Below, piece by piece: positions 8,742 through 14,194 of a stretch of 64,000 bases of DNA; the stretch's first letter is position 1; each line of letters starts with the position of its first letter. The notes below the pieces were generated by a model. That model ran no database searches. It was not told where the DNA came from and saw nothing but the letters and a program-made list of their open reading frames with translations. Both the position numbers and the translations under genes were made by a program. The DNA lies in assembly GCF_005871165.1 (NCBI RefSeq), contig NZ_SWKP01000009.1:1-64000 (forward strand), written 5' to 3'. Source of the DNA: Maricaulis alexandrii (GTDB lineage Bacteria > Pseudomonadota > Alphaproteobacteria > Caulobacterales > Maricaulaceae).

Positions 8742-10265
8742 ATGGATGCGATGACAGACCTCGTCCTGGTCCTGGGAGACCAGCTCAATCACGATTTGCC
8801 CAGCCTGCGCCAGAAGCCGGACGCGGCCGATGTGGTGATGGCGGAGGTGACGGCAGAGACGGCGTATGTCTGGCATCACCGCAAGAAGATCGCCTTCATC
8901 TTCTCCGCCATGCGCCATTTCGCCGATGAGCTGCGCGCGAAGGGTCGGCGTGTGCACTATCACAGCTTCGACGAAGCCCCGCCCTGCCCCGACCTGGCCC
9001 GCGCCGTCGAGGACAGGCTCAAGACGGGTGAGTACGACCGGCTGATCGTAACCGAGCCGGGGGAATGGCGGCTGAAGCAGGCGATGGAGACCTGGTCCGA
9101 GCGGTTCGACGTGGAAGTGGTGATCCTGGAGGATGACCGTTTCCTGTGCTCCCACGACCGGTTCGCGCGCTGGGCCGAGGGGCGCAAGCAGTTGCGAATG
9201 GAGTATTTCTACCGCGAAATGCGGCGCGAGACGGGCCTCCTCATGGAAGGCGACAAGCCGGCCGGCGGGCGCTGGAATTATGATGCGGAGAATCGCGAGG
9301 CGGCATCCTCCAGCCTGTTCATGCCCAAGCCTTTCCAGGTCGAGCCGGACGCGATCACAGCGGATGTTCTGGACCTGGTGGAAGCGCGCTTTGAGGGGTT
9401 CGGGGATTTCCGCCCCTTCCATTTCGCCGTCACCCGCGAGGATGCCCTCAAGGCGCTGGACCATTTCATCGAACAGGCCCTGCCCGAATTCGGCACTTAT
9501 CAGGATGCCATGCTCAAGGGCGAAGCCTTTCTCTATCACTCCCTCCTGTCCGCCTATCTCAATGTCGGCCTGCTCGGCCCGCTGGAAATCTGCCAAGCGG
9601 TGGAGGCGGCGTGGAAGCGTGGCCATGCCCCGCTGAATGCGGCGGAAGGTTATATCCGGCAGATCATCGGCTGGCGGGAATATGTGCGCGGCATCTACTG
9701 GCGCGAGGGGCCGGACTATGTCCGCCGCAATGCGCTGGGCGCGGATCGGCCCCTGCCCGACTTCTACTGGAGCGGCGAGACCGACATGGCCTGCCTGGCC
9801 GCCGCGATCGGGCAGACGCGCCAGGAAGCCTATGCCCACCATATCCAGCGCCTGATGGTGACCGGCACGTTCGCCCTCATCGCCGGGGTCGACCCGCACG
9901 CCCTGCATGAATGGTATCTGGCGGTCTATATCGACGCCTTCGAATGGGTGGAGGCGCCCAATACGGTGGGCATGTCACAATTCGCGGATGGCGGATTGCT
10001 GGGCTCGAAACCCTATGCGGCGAGCGGCGCCTATATCGACCGGATGTCGGATTATTGCGCCGGCTGCCGCTATGATGTGAAGGACAAGACGGGCCCGAAT
10101 TCCTGCCCGTTCAATTCGCTCTACTGGGACTTCCTGGCCCGCAATGAGGACACGCTGCGCAACAATCCGCGCCTGGGTCCGGTCTATCGCAACTGGGACC
10201 GGATGAGCGACGAGAAACGCCAGGCCTATCGCGACCGGGCCGCCGAGGTACTGGACGGGCTCTGA
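8742..10265 (+). CDS. Bacterial FeS photolyase/cryptochrome (PhrB/CryB type)
   Basis: The 507-residue flavoprotein belongs to the FeS-BCP group, whose characterised member PhrB repairs (6-4) photoproducts with blue light. The N-terminal DUF523-unrelated Rossmann domain begins [16 protein letters not shown]. The four [4Fe-4S] ligands are visible as C351 (DMACLAAAI), C439 and C442 (DYCAGC) and C455 (NSCPFN), matching PhrB spacing with a one-residue offset. The [19 protein letters not shown] block is diagnostic. The start is ATG 8742 or the in-frame ATG 8751. The 3' end overlaps the convergent DUF2256 gene by 40 bp. Confidence 0.95.
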
Positions 10266-10408
10266 ACCAGTTTCGACCGGCGGCAACGCTCGGAACAGTA
10301 TTTCACCTCATCCCAGACGCTTTCCCATTTCTTGCGCCACTGGAAGGGCCGGCCGCAAGTCAGGCAGGTCTTGTCCGGCTTGGGTTTGCGGGAGACGTGC
10401 CTGGCCAT
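10226..10408 (-). CDS. DUF2256 small cysteine-rich protein
   Basis: This 60-residue basic protein contains [14 protein letters not shown] and [10 protein letters not shown], giving the CxxC...CxxxC pattern of a small zinc ribbon and the W/K-rich core that defines DUF2256. Function is unknown. It is convergent with the FeS photolyase and overlaps its coding end by 40 bp, so both sequences are constrained there. DUF2256 genes are repeatedly found near photolyase/cryptochrome genes (established association as I recall it), suggesting a role in the same process. Confidence 0.88.
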
Positions 10409-10445
10409 GACCGGCCAGATAGGCCGATCCGGGCGGTCGGAAAGG

Positions 10446-10802
10446 TCAGGCGTGTTCCGCTTTCAGCGTGCCGTCCGGGTTCACCCCCGCCTTCTCCAGC
10501 TCGGGCCCCAGCTTGCCCATGAGGAAGAGGCCGTACATGCGGTAATCGCTGATCAGCGACCAGAGCGGATAGGTGAAGGTCGCCGGTTTGTTGCGTTCGA
10601 CGAAGGCATGGCTGACCCAGGCGAAGAAATAGCCCGATACCGGCACGGCCAGCAGAAGCCACCAGGCCTGCGTCACCAGTGCCGCGACCAGCACGATCAG
10701 GGCCAGGGTCGAGCCGACATAATGCCAGTTCCGCGTCGCCGGCCGGGCATGCTCGCGCAGGTAAAAGGGCCAAAACGACTCAAATCGTGTGTGTTCCCGC
10801 AT
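10446..10802 (-). CDS. DUF962/Mpo1-like membrane protein
   Basis: The 118-residue protein fits the DUF962 family: [21 protein letters not shown] at the N-terminus, two hydrophobic segments at about residues 30-48 and 50-65, and the conserved [15 protein letters not shown] stretch. The eukaryotic relative Mpo1 is a dioxygenase in 2-hydroxy fatty-acid alpha-oxidation that uses conserved histidines; H27 and H65 could correspond, but this is inference. GAGAGG precedes the ATG. It may be cotranscribed with DUF2256, 37 bp downstream. Confidence 0.85.
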
Positions 10803-10815
10803 CGTCCTCTCCCGG

Positions 10816-10836
10816 GTGATTCGTTGCTCGAATCAC
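10816..10836. promoter_or_regulatory. Inverted repeat upstream of the DUF962 gene
   Basis: GTGATTCG (10816-10823) and CGAATCAC (10829-10836) form a perfect 8-bp inverted repeat with a 5-nt spacer, 14 bp before the DUF962 start codon. Each arm includes a GANTC site, the CcrM methylation target in this group. It could be an operator or a 5'-UTR hairpin. Confidence 0.4.
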
Positions 10837-10971
10837 ATCTGCTGTTTGTTCCGTCAGGATAAATCGGGATTTCGTGGTGAATCAAACATCGCCTCAAAAC
10901 GGCGCATTTCGATGATTCCATTAGGTTTTCGGCAAGGACGATAAACCAAATACCGAATTGCCCCTTTCCTG

Positions 10972-10986
10972 TTAACTCCGCTTTAA
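10972..10986 (+). promoter_or_regulatory. Perfect CtrA box (TTAA-N7-TTAA)
   Basis: TTAACTCCGCTTTAA matches the full CtrA consensus with exact 7-bp spacing. No protein gene starts downstream on either strand before tRNA-Asn, but a hairpin-terminated RNA does. The box would sit near -35 for a transcript starting around 11011. GANTC sites occur at 10879-10883 and 10914-10918. TTAA is rare in this GC-rich sequence, so a perfect double site is unlikely by chance. Confidence 0.65.
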
Positions 10987-11010
10987 GGGTTCTGACCCAA
11001 TTCTTCACAT

Positions 11011-11082
11011 GTCTTCCCGTGAAGACACCCCACCATCCACCCAATGCCTTTTCGGGAGCCTTCGTGGCTCCCGATTTTTTTT
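11011..11082 (+). ncRNA. Candidate CtrA-controlled small RNA
   Basis: The roughly 72-nt transcript would have a 5' hairpin (GTCTTC 11011-11016 with GAAGAC 11021-11026, loop CCGT), an unpaired C-rich stretch at 11027-11043 (ACCCCACCATCCACCC), and a terminator hairpin with eight U residues (11053-11082). This is the architecture of trans-acting sRNAs, and the C-rich stretch could pair with Shine-Dalgarno sequences. No open frame with a ribosome site is visible. The 5' end is inferred from the CtrA box spacing. It may belong to a known alphaproteobacterial sRNA family such as mmgR/suhB or alpha-r14; I cannot tell without a covariance search. Confidence 0.6.
11053..11082 (+). terminator. Orphan rho-independent terminator (sRNA 3' end)
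   Basis: CGGGAGCC (11053-11060) pairs perfectly with GGCTCCCG (11066-11073) around TTCGT, followed by A and eight T residues. It points in the plus direction, yet the nearest upstream plus-strand protein gene ends 790 bp earlier with two opposite-strand genes between. It therefore most likely ends a short non-coding transcript. Confidence 0.88.
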
Positions 11083-11172
11083 GCAGAAACGCCTGCAATT
11101 CAGCGCACAAGGGTGCTTGCGCGGCGGCGCGAAGCTCTGATACAAGCCACGCCTCGCTTGCGAGAAGAGTGT

Positions 11173-11248
11173 TCCCCGGTAGCTCAGTTGGTAGAGCAGG
11201 TGACTGTTAATCACCGGGTCGGCGGTTCGAGCCCGTCCCGGGGAGCCA
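11173..11248 (+). tRNA. tRNA-Asn (GTT)
   Basis: Acceptor TCCCCGG (11173-11179) pairs with CCGGGGA (11238-11244). The D-arm is TAGCTCAGTTGGTAGAGCA, the anticodon GTT is at 11206-11208 between GGTGA and TCACC, and the T-loop is GGTTCGAGCCC. The discriminator is G and the CCA end is encoded. Confidence 0.97.
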
Positions 11249-11320
11249 CTCTCGCGAATTTCCCTGATAGTGTTGGTGATTTGAGCGGTGTGCGGGCTTT
11301 AGTGGTCCGCTTTGCGGACG

Positions 11321-11480
11321 CCCCCTCATCCGCCCTCCGGGCACCCATCGTCACGTCAGACAGTCCCCCAGACTGTCTTTGGGCTCCTCTACCCGCAAGG
11401 GGAGAAGGGGGACGGTTAGCGCTCCATACTCCCTCTCCCCCTTGCGGGAGAGTGTGGCGCGTACGCGCCGGGTGAGGGGG
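11321..11480. repeat. Intergenic palindromic repeat, CCCCCTCATC...GGTGAGGGGG
   Basis: The gap between tRNA-Asn and the tyrA-like gene holds a long inverted repeat: CCCCCTCATCCGCCCTCCGG at one end and GCGCCGGGTGAGGGGG at the other. Between them are CTACCCGCAAGGGGAGAAG and TCTCCCCCTTGCGGGAGAG, which also face each other. It belongs to the same family as the copies near 4.1, 14.3 and 16.1 kb. Confidence 0.7.
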
Positions 11481-11503
11481 GCAGCGCGAAGCGCCCACCA
11501 AAA

Positions 11504-12229
11504 CTAGTCCACCAACCGCTCATCCAGTTTCCGCGCCGCGTCGAAAAACCGTCGCCGCAGATCTGCCGCGTGCGGGTTGTGACGCTCAATGGCGCGGAAC
11601 AACTCGTCGCTGTCCTCGGCGACCAGGCGGGCGGCTTCGGCGAGGAGGTCATAGGAGCGGGTTGTGTAGGGTGCGTCGGTAAGGCCCAGATCGGTGATCA
11701 CCTTGGACACCAGATGGGTGAGCGCCTGGACGCTGGCCATGGTGCGGTCATGGGTGTCGGCATCGGAGAGGTGGACGTCGAGGCCGAGCCGGTCCGTCAG
11801 GAATTCCGCGACACAATCGGCCTCCACGCCAGCCTCGGGACAGAGGACGATGGACTGGCCGGCCACGCCCTGCGCGGCCGATTGCGGACCGAAGAGCGGG
11901 TGGGTGCCGAGGATGCGGGTTCCGGCGGGCAGGATTTCACGCAGGATGCGCAAGGGTTCCAGCTTCACCGAAGCAACGTCGATGACCAGGGCGCCGGACG
12001 CCAGATGCGGGGCAATGGCCTCGGCCACACCCGCCAGAGCCTGGACCGGAACCGCGAGGATCACGACCGGCCGCGCCGCCGCTTCGTCCAGGGACACCCA
12101 ACGGCCGCCCGGCAGATCGCGCACGGACGGGTCATGCCCGACCAGATCGAAATGCGGTGCGAGATGCGTCGCGGCCAACCGGCCGAACGCGCCCAGGCCG
12201 ATGAGGCCGATCTGGCTGGTCTGCGTCAT
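11504..12229 (-). CDS. tyrA: Prephenate/arogenate dehydrogenase family protein
   Basis: This enzyme type oxidatively decarboxylates prephenate or arogenate in tyrosine synthesis. The 241-residue protein has an N-terminal nucleotide-binding GLIGLGAFGRLAA motif, the conserved DVASVK segment and GTHPLFGPQSA (family signature GTHPMFGP), then a helical C-terminal domain. It is shorter than many TyrA proteins (270-310 residues) and has no chorismate mutase or ACT domain. ATG 12229 is preferred over one 24 bases upstream because MTQTSQ directly precedes the Rossmann strand. The substrate cannot be decided here. Confidence 0.85.
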   Translation of the reverse strand: MTQTSQIGLIGLGAFGRLAATHLAPHFDLVGHDPSVRDLPGGRWVSLDEAAARPVVILAVPVQALAGVAEAIAPHLASGALVIDVASVKLEPLRILREILPAGTRILGTHPLFGPQSAAQGVAGQSIVLCPEAGVEADCVAEFLTDRLGLDVHLSDADTHDRTMASVQALTHLVSKVITDLGLTDAPYTTRSYDLLAEAARLVAEDSDELFRAIERHNPHAADLRRRFFDAARKLDERLVD

Positions 12230-12280
12230 GAAAACCCCGTTCTGCCCGCACATTAGCGGGAATCGGCCAACGGGGAATGC

Positions 12281-14194
12281 CTATTGCGCCGCGGGCGCCT
12301 CGACCGTGTCGGCGTCCAGGGTGAGTTCACCCCCCTCCCCGGCCTCGCTCTGGCGTTTCCACATGGCGGCGTAGAGGCCGTCCTTTGCGAGAAGTTCGGC
12401 ATGGGTGCCGTTCTCGGCGACATGGCCATCATCCAGGACGAGGATCCGGTCGGCACCGGCAATGGTGGACAGGCGGTGGGCGACGGCGATCGTGGTGCGG
12501 CCCCGGGCCGCTTCGGCCAGGGCGACCTGGACATCCTTCTCGGTCTGACTGTCGAGGGCCGAGGTGGCCTCGTCGAGCACGAGAATGGCCGGGTTTTTCA
12601 GGATGGCGCGGGCGACGCCGACGCGCTGTTTCTCACCGCCGGACAGTTTCAGCCCGCGCTCGCCGACCATGGTGTCCAGACCGTCCGGCAGGCCGTCGAC
12701 GAAAGCGGCCAGTCGCGCCCGTTCCACGACGTCCCGGATCTCCGCCTCGGTCGCGTCCGGACGGCCATAGATGATGTTGGCGCGCAAAGTGTCATTGAAC
12801 AGGACCACGTCCTGGGGCACCAGGGCGAGGATGTCGCGCAGGCTTTCCTGGGTGAGCTGACGCAGATCCTGGCCATCAATCCGCACCGTCCCGCTCTCCG
12901 GATCGTAAAAGCGGAAGAGCAGGCGCAACACGGTGGACTTGCCGGCGCCGGACGGGCCGCAAATCCCGACAAAACTGCCCGCCGGAATCTCGAAACTGAC
13001 ATCCCGGATCGATCGGGACCGGCCATCATGGGTGAAGCCGACACGGTCGAAGCTGACTGCGCCGCCCTTCACTTCCAGCGGCCTGGCATCGGGCGCATCG
13101 GCCACGTCCGGCTTGATCGCCAGCGTTTCGAAGACGCGCTCCATGTCGACCGCGCCCTGTTTGATCTCGCGATAGGCCCAGCCCAGAATGTTCAATGGCT
13201 GGTAGACATTCATCAGGATCAGCGTCACGGCGGCGACATCGCCCGGCTGCAACTGGCCGTTCCAGGCTTTCCAGCCGGCCATCAGCGCCATCGCCAACAA
13301 GCCGCCATTCATGATCAGCGCCTGGGCGCCATTGAGCAGGGCCAGGGAGGACTGGGACTTGGCCGCCGCCTTGGCATAGCGCGTCATGGAGGTGTCGAAG
13401 GCCTCTGCCTCGCGCCGCTCCGCGGCGAAGGCTTTCACGGTCTCGAAATTGATCAGGCTGTCGACGGCGCGGGCGGAGGCTTCATTGTCGGCCTCGTTCA
13501 TGGTGCGGCGGATCTGGACGCGCCATTCGGTCACCGACCAGGTCAGTCCCATATAGACGGCCACGGTGATGATCGCGATGACCGCGAATTCCCAGCCATA
13601 GGTCGTGCTCAGCACCAGTGCCGCCAGGCCCAGTTCCAGCAGGGTCGGCGCGATGTTGAAGATCAGGAAGCGCATCAGGAAATCGACGGCGCGGGCCCCG
13701 CGCTCGATGATCCGGTTGAGGGCCCCGGTGCGCTTGGTCTGGTGATAGCCGATGGAGAGCGTCTGGACGTGGGCGAAGGCGCGCACGGCCGTCAGGCGCT
13801 GGGCGTCCTGGCTGACCGGCGCAAACAGGGCATCGCGCAATTGCGGCGCCCCCACCGAGAGAAAGCGCGCCACGGCATAGACGATGAAGGCCAGGGTGAA
13901 GGTGGAAATGATCCCGGTCAGTGCCCCGGCGCCGGCCGGTGCCTCGCTGTCAGACGGTCCGCCCTGCCCGGCATGCTCGGTGATCAGATTGATCCCGTCA
14001 CCAAAGAAGACCGGCGCATAGACCGCAAAAATCTTGGCGATCAGGGTGAGGACCAGCGCCACGCCCATGCGGAAACGCCATTTCGCCATGTCCGGCGAGG
14101 CCAGCAGCGCAAACAGCCGCCACATCGTCGTGCCCAGAGAGCCTTTCGGCGCCTGCTTGGCTTCCGCTTCGGTATCGGTGGGCAAAGGTCTCAT
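12281..14194 (-). CDS. Atm1-type ABC exporter (half-transporter)
   Basis: This 637-residue half-transporter has an N-terminal ABC transmembrane domain (six helices, about residues 20-320) and a C-terminal ATPase with Walker A GPSGAGKST, signature LSGGEKQRVGVARA and Walker B AILVLDEATSALDS. Order and sequence (GALNRIIERGARAVDFL; the intracellular YQPLNILGWAYREIKQ) fit the Atm1/ABCB7 group, which exports glutathione-linked sulfur or metal compounds for Fe-S biogenesis and metal tolerance. ATG 14194 is preferred; the frame extends 72 bases upstream without similarity. Confidence 0.92.
   Translation of the reverse strand: MRPLPTDTEAEAKQAPKGSLGTTMWRLFALLASPDMAKWRFRMGVALVLTLIAKIFAVYAPVFFGDGINLITEHAGQGGPSDSEAPAGAGALTGIISTFTLAFIVYAVARFLSVGAPQLRDALFAPVSQDAQRLTAVRAFAHVQTLSIGYHQTKRTGALNRIIERGARAVDFLMRFLIFNIAPTLLELGLAALVLSTTYGWEFAVIAIITVAVYMGLTWSVTEWRVQIRRTMNEADNEASARAVDSLINFETVKAFAAERREAEAFDTSMTRYAKAAAKSQSSLALLNGAQALIMNGGLLAMALMAGWKAWNGQLQPGDVAAVTLILMNVYQPLNILGWAYREIKQGAVDMERVFETLAIKPDVADAPDARPLEVKGGAVSFDRVGFTHDGRSRSIRDVSFEIPAGSFVGICGPSGAGKSTVLRLLFRFYDPESGTVRIDGQDLRQLTQESLRDILALVPQDVVLFNDTLRANIIYGRPDATEAEIRDVVERARLAAFVDGLPDGLDTMVGERGLKLSGGEKQRVGVARAILKNPAILVLDEATSALDSQTEKDVQVALAEAARGRTTIAVAHRLSTIAGADRILVLDDGHVAENGTHAELLAKDGLYAAMWKRQSEAGEGGELTLDADTVEAPAAQ

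Follow-up and report, generated by a model that had tools for sequence, protein, structure and literature searches.

Comparative evidence for a CtrA-controlled small RNA beside tRNA-Asn in Maricaulis alexandrii, a divergent relative of Caulobacter CC0196

A locus upstream of tRNA-Asn in Maricaulis alexandrii (contig NZ_SWKP01000009.1, positions 1 to 64,000; this whole stretch of 64,000 nt is referred to as the window) is predicted to encode a 72-nt small RNA (sRNA) behind a CtrA box, and we consider it likely that this is a CtrA-activated, independently terminated sRNA that acts in trans by base-pairing. A preliminary description of the same DNA had proposed a CtrA-controlled sRNA of about 70 nt within 10990-11082, between DUF962 and tRNA-Asn. 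Control by CtrA found strong comparative support in the constant spacing of the box, the -10 element, the independent terminator, the covariation of the RNA and the presence of CtrA in the genome. Two details are corrected: the RNA is predicted to be 72 nt long with its start at 11011 (Table 1), and the upstream gene is Mpo1-like (PF06127 in Pfam). Gene boundaries, promoter layout, structure, conservation and homology to Rfam family RF01519 (CC0196) are supported by comparison of homologous loci; CtrA activation, cell-cycle timing, use of Hfq and base-pairing are what we infer of its operation.

In CtrA-activated promoters, the box lies where the -35 element would be. The perfect CtrA box of the preliminary description (TTAACTCCGCTTTAA) was confirmed, and is the single match to TTAA-N7-TTAA on both strands of the 64 kb, where dinucleotide shuffles predict 0.01. 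For the promoter alignment, 132 non-redundant upstream regions were anchored on the first hairpin base; the promoter, tRNA-distance and GANTC counts given here cover only sequences fitting a hairpin-plus-core regular expression, the divergent loci L077, L215, L220 and L223 being dropped. The box was perfect in 86 of these promoters, one mismatch off in 45 and two mismatches off in 1, compared with 0.14% (perfect) and 2.6% (one mismatch) in mononucleotide shuffles of the same 132 regions, and a box with at most one mismatch began at -40 to -38 in 129/132. The columns holding most information were the half-sites TTAAC-N6-TTAAC (-38 to -23), A-11 and T-7; 87% of the promoters have A at -11, 80% have T at -7 and 85% have a pyrimidine at -1. 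The alignment therefore places the predicted +1 at 11011 and the box at the -35 position, and TTAA-N7-TTAA at this position plus a -10 element was found at 10972-11004 in the window. A generic sigma-70 scan did not pick up the -10 hexamer because the scan demands a -35 match. Among 80 stretches examined, of at least 117, a box with at most one mismatch was missing in three: in L095 the contig end cuts the region, and L119 and L123 carry two box mismatches. CtrA and GcrA were each encoded in 15/15 genomes tried, and the CtrA of the window's own genome shares 83% identity with Caulobacter CtrA over residues 1-228.

The CcrM methylation site GANTC was present between the CtrA box and the -10 element, at -22 to -16, in 25/133 non-redundant promoters (for example L042, L044, L046 and L054); the promoter in the window has no such site at this spot. 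This clustering is notable because 25 sites fall at one spot, relative to 43/133 promoters with GANTC anywhere in 60 nt and approximately 25 in shuffles, and in some genera it suggests a further input from the cell cycle.

The 5′ hairpin (GTCTTC-CCGT-GAAGAC), the C-rich unpaired stretch and the terminator with eight T were all present as first described. The region 11000-11082 had a folding energy of -26.7 kcal/mol (z -5.8), equalled by 0/200 shuffles. The terminator alone is within chance, with two terminator-like sites in 10200-12300 and 2.0 expected; the case rests on conservation. Across 70 distinct sequences, 98.6% of cells were paired with a covariation score of 0.640, compared with 44-56% paired and covariation of at most 0.164 in slid control versions of the alignment, and these percentages lean toward the structure because the alignment was fitted to it. 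Two-sided changes were seen at all 9 terminator pairs (97.7% of cells paired), and the nearly fixed 5′ stem (99.8% of cells paired) had two-sided changes at 2/6 pairs, G-C being replaced by A-U in four sequences, which all belong to family f5, and U-A by C-G in a single one. Directly 3′ of the hairpin lies ACCCCACCATCCACCC (11027-11042); among homologues, the core CCCACCAU is close to invariant and the stretch following it varies in length. The mean unpaired probability of the core was 0.99 in the window RNA, and the core was mostly unpaired in six folded lineages (means of 0.91-1.00), with one core position at 0.11 in the f5 sequence. A small protein encoded at the sRNA was rejected on inspection, the frames passing through the terminator, whose letters vary.

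Within the order, homologues are present in most of the genomes examined; a few neighbouring lineages have them too. Plain BLAST with a 141-nt query matched 43/61 genomes at E≤1, own genome included, the weakest matches being at chance level; G001, of the same genus (Maricaulis), was 97% identical across the query, and six other genera showed 91-94% identity across most of the RNA. The comparison with relatives suggested in the preliminary description was made, and the CtrA box, its spacing to the RNA, the hairpin and the C-rich core were seen to recur beside tRNA-Asn in different genera. A covariance model of 16 sequences, all from the window's own family f1 (model R1), matched 209/249 genomes of the order at E≤1, with weak matches near chance, many of them in family f5. 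A broader model of 45 sequences (R2) was run on 20 hand-picked genomes, some of which had no R1 match, and matched 20/20 at E≤1 and 19 at E≤4.7e-4; R2 matches span families f1 to f5. A class-wide covariance search matched 31/385 genomes at E≤0.01. Strong matches outside the order (E≤1.2e-9) came from families f8, f9, f95, f120, f127 and f141, and Rhizomicrobium (Micropepsales) is one named example of a homologue there; 12 further matches outside the order, at 5e-4 to 0.01, were not relied on, as approximately 4 are expected by chance and the E-values are rough. Second copies of the sRNA were observed at L106 (in the same metagenome-assembled genome, MAG, as L101) and at L077 (G135), both retaining a CtrA-like box, perfect in L106 and one mismatch off in L077, with no tRNA-Asn in the adjoining DNA.

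An Rfam covariance search, also called for in the preliminary description, found only tRNAs over cut-off in the window, and RF01519 did not match the window RNA at its gathering score of 35 bits or at E≤10; this family was reached only via the Caulobacter members. RF01519 scored over cut-off in 4/15 homologous loci scanned, L219 (95.2 bits), L211, L117 (a named Caulobacter MAG) and L067, and in 7/26 chosen genomes, where all of the matches listed belong to family f3, which contains Phenylobacterium and Caulobacter, and score 35.1-95.2 bits. One of 14 named control genomes, presumed to be Caulobacter vibrioides, was also over cut-off. Among the matches listed, R1 and RF01519 landed on the same places in G094 (R1 E 1.2e-5) and G198 (R1 E 4.6e-7). 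CC0196 resembles the window RNA in lying before tRNA-Asn and in having a 5′ hairpin, the CCCACCAU core and a terminator, so that locus, hairpin, core and terminator all agree; the core continues as CACUGACUU in G179 on the CC0196 side and as CCACCCAAUGCC in the window. As Caulobacter members at the same place pass RF01519 and the window RNA fails it, the latter is best described as a CC0196 homologue outside the Rfam model, that is, by sequence comparison, a divergent relative, unrecognised until now, of an sRNA catalogued only in its Caulobacter branch. RF01519 CC0196, a Caulobacter sRNA, reportedly goes back to Landt et al. 2008.

The literature search, which had most subscription papers and supplements outside its reach, found no function for a CC0196-type RNA and, among CtrA-linked sRNAs, none described at this tRNA-Asn place; nor was a description of the family's extent and promoter logic found in the papers searchable here. 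Of the C. crescentus locus tags R0004, R0025, R0139 and R0171, weighed using the accessible part of PMC5988900, none could be placed on this RNA.

Relationship to other sRNA families was also considered. Membership in suhB/mmgR (alpha-r8), raised in the preliminary description, is contradicted by a score of 12 bits for RF00519 (cut-off 41). The alpha-r8/suhB-mmgR/SisA-D RNAs are alike in being short, with a 5′ hairpin, a pyrimidine-rich single strand and a terminator, but their core UUUCCUCCCU, as given in the available text of PMC12559287, is absent from the window RNA. For alpha-r14, no Rfam match was found at E≤10, with the presence of such a model in Rfam 15 unchecked. The best sub-threshold Rfam match was RF02866 ncS16 of Burkholderia (23 bits, cut-off 48), which has CACCAU and a terminator in common with the window RNA; this sub-threshold resemblance is probably chance or convergence, and kinship was rejected. 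The Sinorhizobium RNA GspR is likewise an sRNA tied to CtrA, but the part of its published description available to us (PMC5928217) speaks against identity, as GspR is 143 nt long, is reported as conserved in Sinorhizobium/Ensifer, represses ctrA and has no known promoter signature there.

Table 1 Predicted features of the sRNA locus in the window
Feature	Position	Strand	Basis or remark
CtrA box TTAACTCCGCTTTAA	10972..10986	+	-39 to -25 relative to 11011, occupying the -35 place
-10 hexamer AATTCT	10999..11004	+	A at -11, T at -7
72-nt small RNA, predicted +1 G11011	11011..11082	+	Models R1/R2, promoter spacing, divergent homologue of RF01519 CC0196
5′ hairpin GUCUUC-CCGU-GAAGAC	11011..11026	+	Fold and pairing in homologues
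Unpaired C-rich core ACCCCACCAUCCACCCAAUGCC, presumed base-pairing seed	11027..11048	+	Near-invariance of CCCACCAU, unpaired probability
Intrinsic terminator, 9-bp stem and eight T	11052..11082	+	Stem-loop 11052-11074, T run 11075-11082
tRNA-Asn(GUU), separate gene, conserved neighbour	11173..11248	+	Same-strand downstream adjacency in homologous loci

The observation that no plus-strand protein gene ends near the terminator held: the nearest on the upstream side, a photolyase-related gene, ends at 10265, and two minus-strand genes, DUF2256 and the Mpo1-like gene, lie between it and the sRNA. Behind tRNA-Asn, apparent inverted copies of a C-rich/G-rich motif around CCCCTTGCGGG were seen by eye at 11360-11480. 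tRNA-Cys was found upstream on the same strand in 92/166 homologous loci. In genus g28 (L067, L208 and L216-L219), tRNA-Asn behind the sRNA is a tandem pair in several genomes and a single gene in others.

We propose that CtrA, bound to its box in place of a -35 element, would bring in RNA polymerase with sigma-70 at the -10 hexamer, and that transcription from G11011 to the terminator would yield the 72-nt RNA. Its protective 5′ hairpin, exposed C-rich core and U-tailed terminator match the layout expected of a trans-acting sRNA of the Hfq type; Hfq dependence, to which the U-tailed terminator points, is presumed. Most likely, CCCACCAU and the ACCC that follows would pair with a small number of mRNAs, and would do so when CtrA~P is high, in swarmer and predivisional cells.

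The conserved neighbourhood invites another explanation, in which CtrA drives tRNA-Asn and the hairpin and terminator act as a leader or attenuator governing read-through into it. Same-strand tRNA-Asn was indeed found downstream in 158/166 loci, at a median of 165.5 nt from the RNA start, and of the remaining 8, six have less than 700 nt of downstream sequence and two are without tRNA-Asn. However, the covarying terminator stem closes the RNA ahead of the tRNA, the distance between them ranges from 127 to 1258 nt, L106, L174, L077 and L220 have no tRNA-Asn in the available flanking DNA, and in L215 and L223 tRNA-Asn is on the opposite strand. A leader role is rendered very unlikely by the intervening terminator, by the tRNA-less second copies that keep RNA and box, and by the reversed tRNA-Asn of L215 and L223, and the sRNA appears to be a gene independent of tRNA-Asn. 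It is scarcely credible that the box instead serves the divergent Mpo1-like gene, whose minus-strand start at 10802 is approximately 170 nt from the box, with the hairpin-terminator a chance or relic structure: across 132 diverse promoters the box-to-RNA spacing is near-fixed and the -10 element is aimed at the RNA, and the RNA shows conservation and covariation of its own.

Several results weigh against the proposed trans-acting, CtrA-activated sRNA. G023, in the window's own family, has no credible homologue (R2 E 0.62), several promoters in the Caulobacter-like genus g28 have a box at least one mismatch off, and a CtrA box can also repress. The others concern targets, for which pattern searches and two candidate mRNAs (ctrA and gcrA) were used. 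The exact complement RTGGTGGGGT occurs at 8 sites in the own genome; one of these is the sRNA gene, and the remaining seven were all judged unconvincing as start regions. Searching 6 genomes for the pattern TGGTGGGG-N0-14-ATG yielded 147 matches; matches were inspected in 69 loci (all 30 in the own genome, all 21 in G010 and five places each in the other four), of which 6 had an open reading frame and an upstream purine-rich stretch and one, a LysR-type regulator in G010, was plausible but without counterpart in the own genome. No target of this pattern was common to two Maricaulis genomes when exact 8-mer complements were required. An 18-nt complement with at most 3 mismatches was found at 12 non-sRNA places in 9 genomes, relative to 14 for the reversed control; the sole shared site (own genome and G001) is probably antisense to a gene start, and nothing both conserved and target-like was seen among these near-complements. 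Pairing of the core with the start regions of ctrA and gcrA in 15 genomes, scored as predicted duplex energies relative to mononucleotide shuffles (negative values denote better pairing), gave z from -2.2 to +2.3, like shuffled sequence; the best single values were for gcrA in G133 (z -2.2) and G189 (z -1.7). The possibility raised in the preliminary description, that ribosome sites on many mRNAs could be blocked by the RNA, thus lacks support in these limited searches, which gave no conserved target.

The same energies bear on a CcnA-like role, in which the C-rich stretch would open or block the ctrA and gcrA ribosome sites, and which we regard as improbable. CcnA (CCNA_R0094) is alike in having a CtrA box at its promoter and a C-rich effector stretch, according to the available text of PMC8959179, and its targets are ctrA and gcrA. 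However, CcnA is 182 nt long and lies within the replication origin, a placement that two homologues do not share: in G179 and G189, both judged to be Caulobacter, the sRNA is found at 1.79 and 2.05 Mb and dnaA at 6 kb and 0.8 kb, a separation of 1.8-2.0 Mb. Identity with CcnA was rejected on the grounds of size, genomic place and predicted pairing. A decoy, with a protein binding the core or the core pairing with another small RNA as a sponge, and mRNA pairing not its role, has a modest chance of being correct. Near-absolute conservation of the core without a conserved mRNA complement in the limited searches favours it, and sponging of an sRNA by CrfA is known in Caulobacter from the accessible part of PMC12559287; the layout, though, is that of an ordinary trans-acting sRNA, the reading we prefer.

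CtrA control of sRNAs is in itself already known. The CtrA-bound, cell-cycle-regulated starts of C. crescentus reported in the available portion of PMC4287350 include six non-coding RNAs, of which the Caulobacter homologue may be one; full CtrA sites are predicted at R0025, R0094 and R0171 in the part of PMC5988900 that could be consulted (Table 3 of that paper). Of these CtrA-linked RNAs, only CcnA (R0094) was found characterised in the literature searched, as far as these partly accessible sources go. The distinctive finding is the joint conservation of box, start site and core across the order and beyond it, against a changing background of flanks and terminator letters; RF01519 as built is too narrow. 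Tentatively, and with more doubt than confidence, we suggest that in the Caulobacter lineage and neighbouring groups CtrA has in this RNA an ancestral, dedicated post-transcriptional output. The RNA is almost always preceded by a CtrA box (with a CcrM site in about one fifth of promoters), and on this view its near-invariant core would silence a conserved target set in CtrA-active cells. Whether CtrA has such a fixed RNA arm is a question directly testable in Caulobacter, because the homologue is already catalogued there, and if it is true, few cell-cycle sRNAs would be as widely kept as this one.
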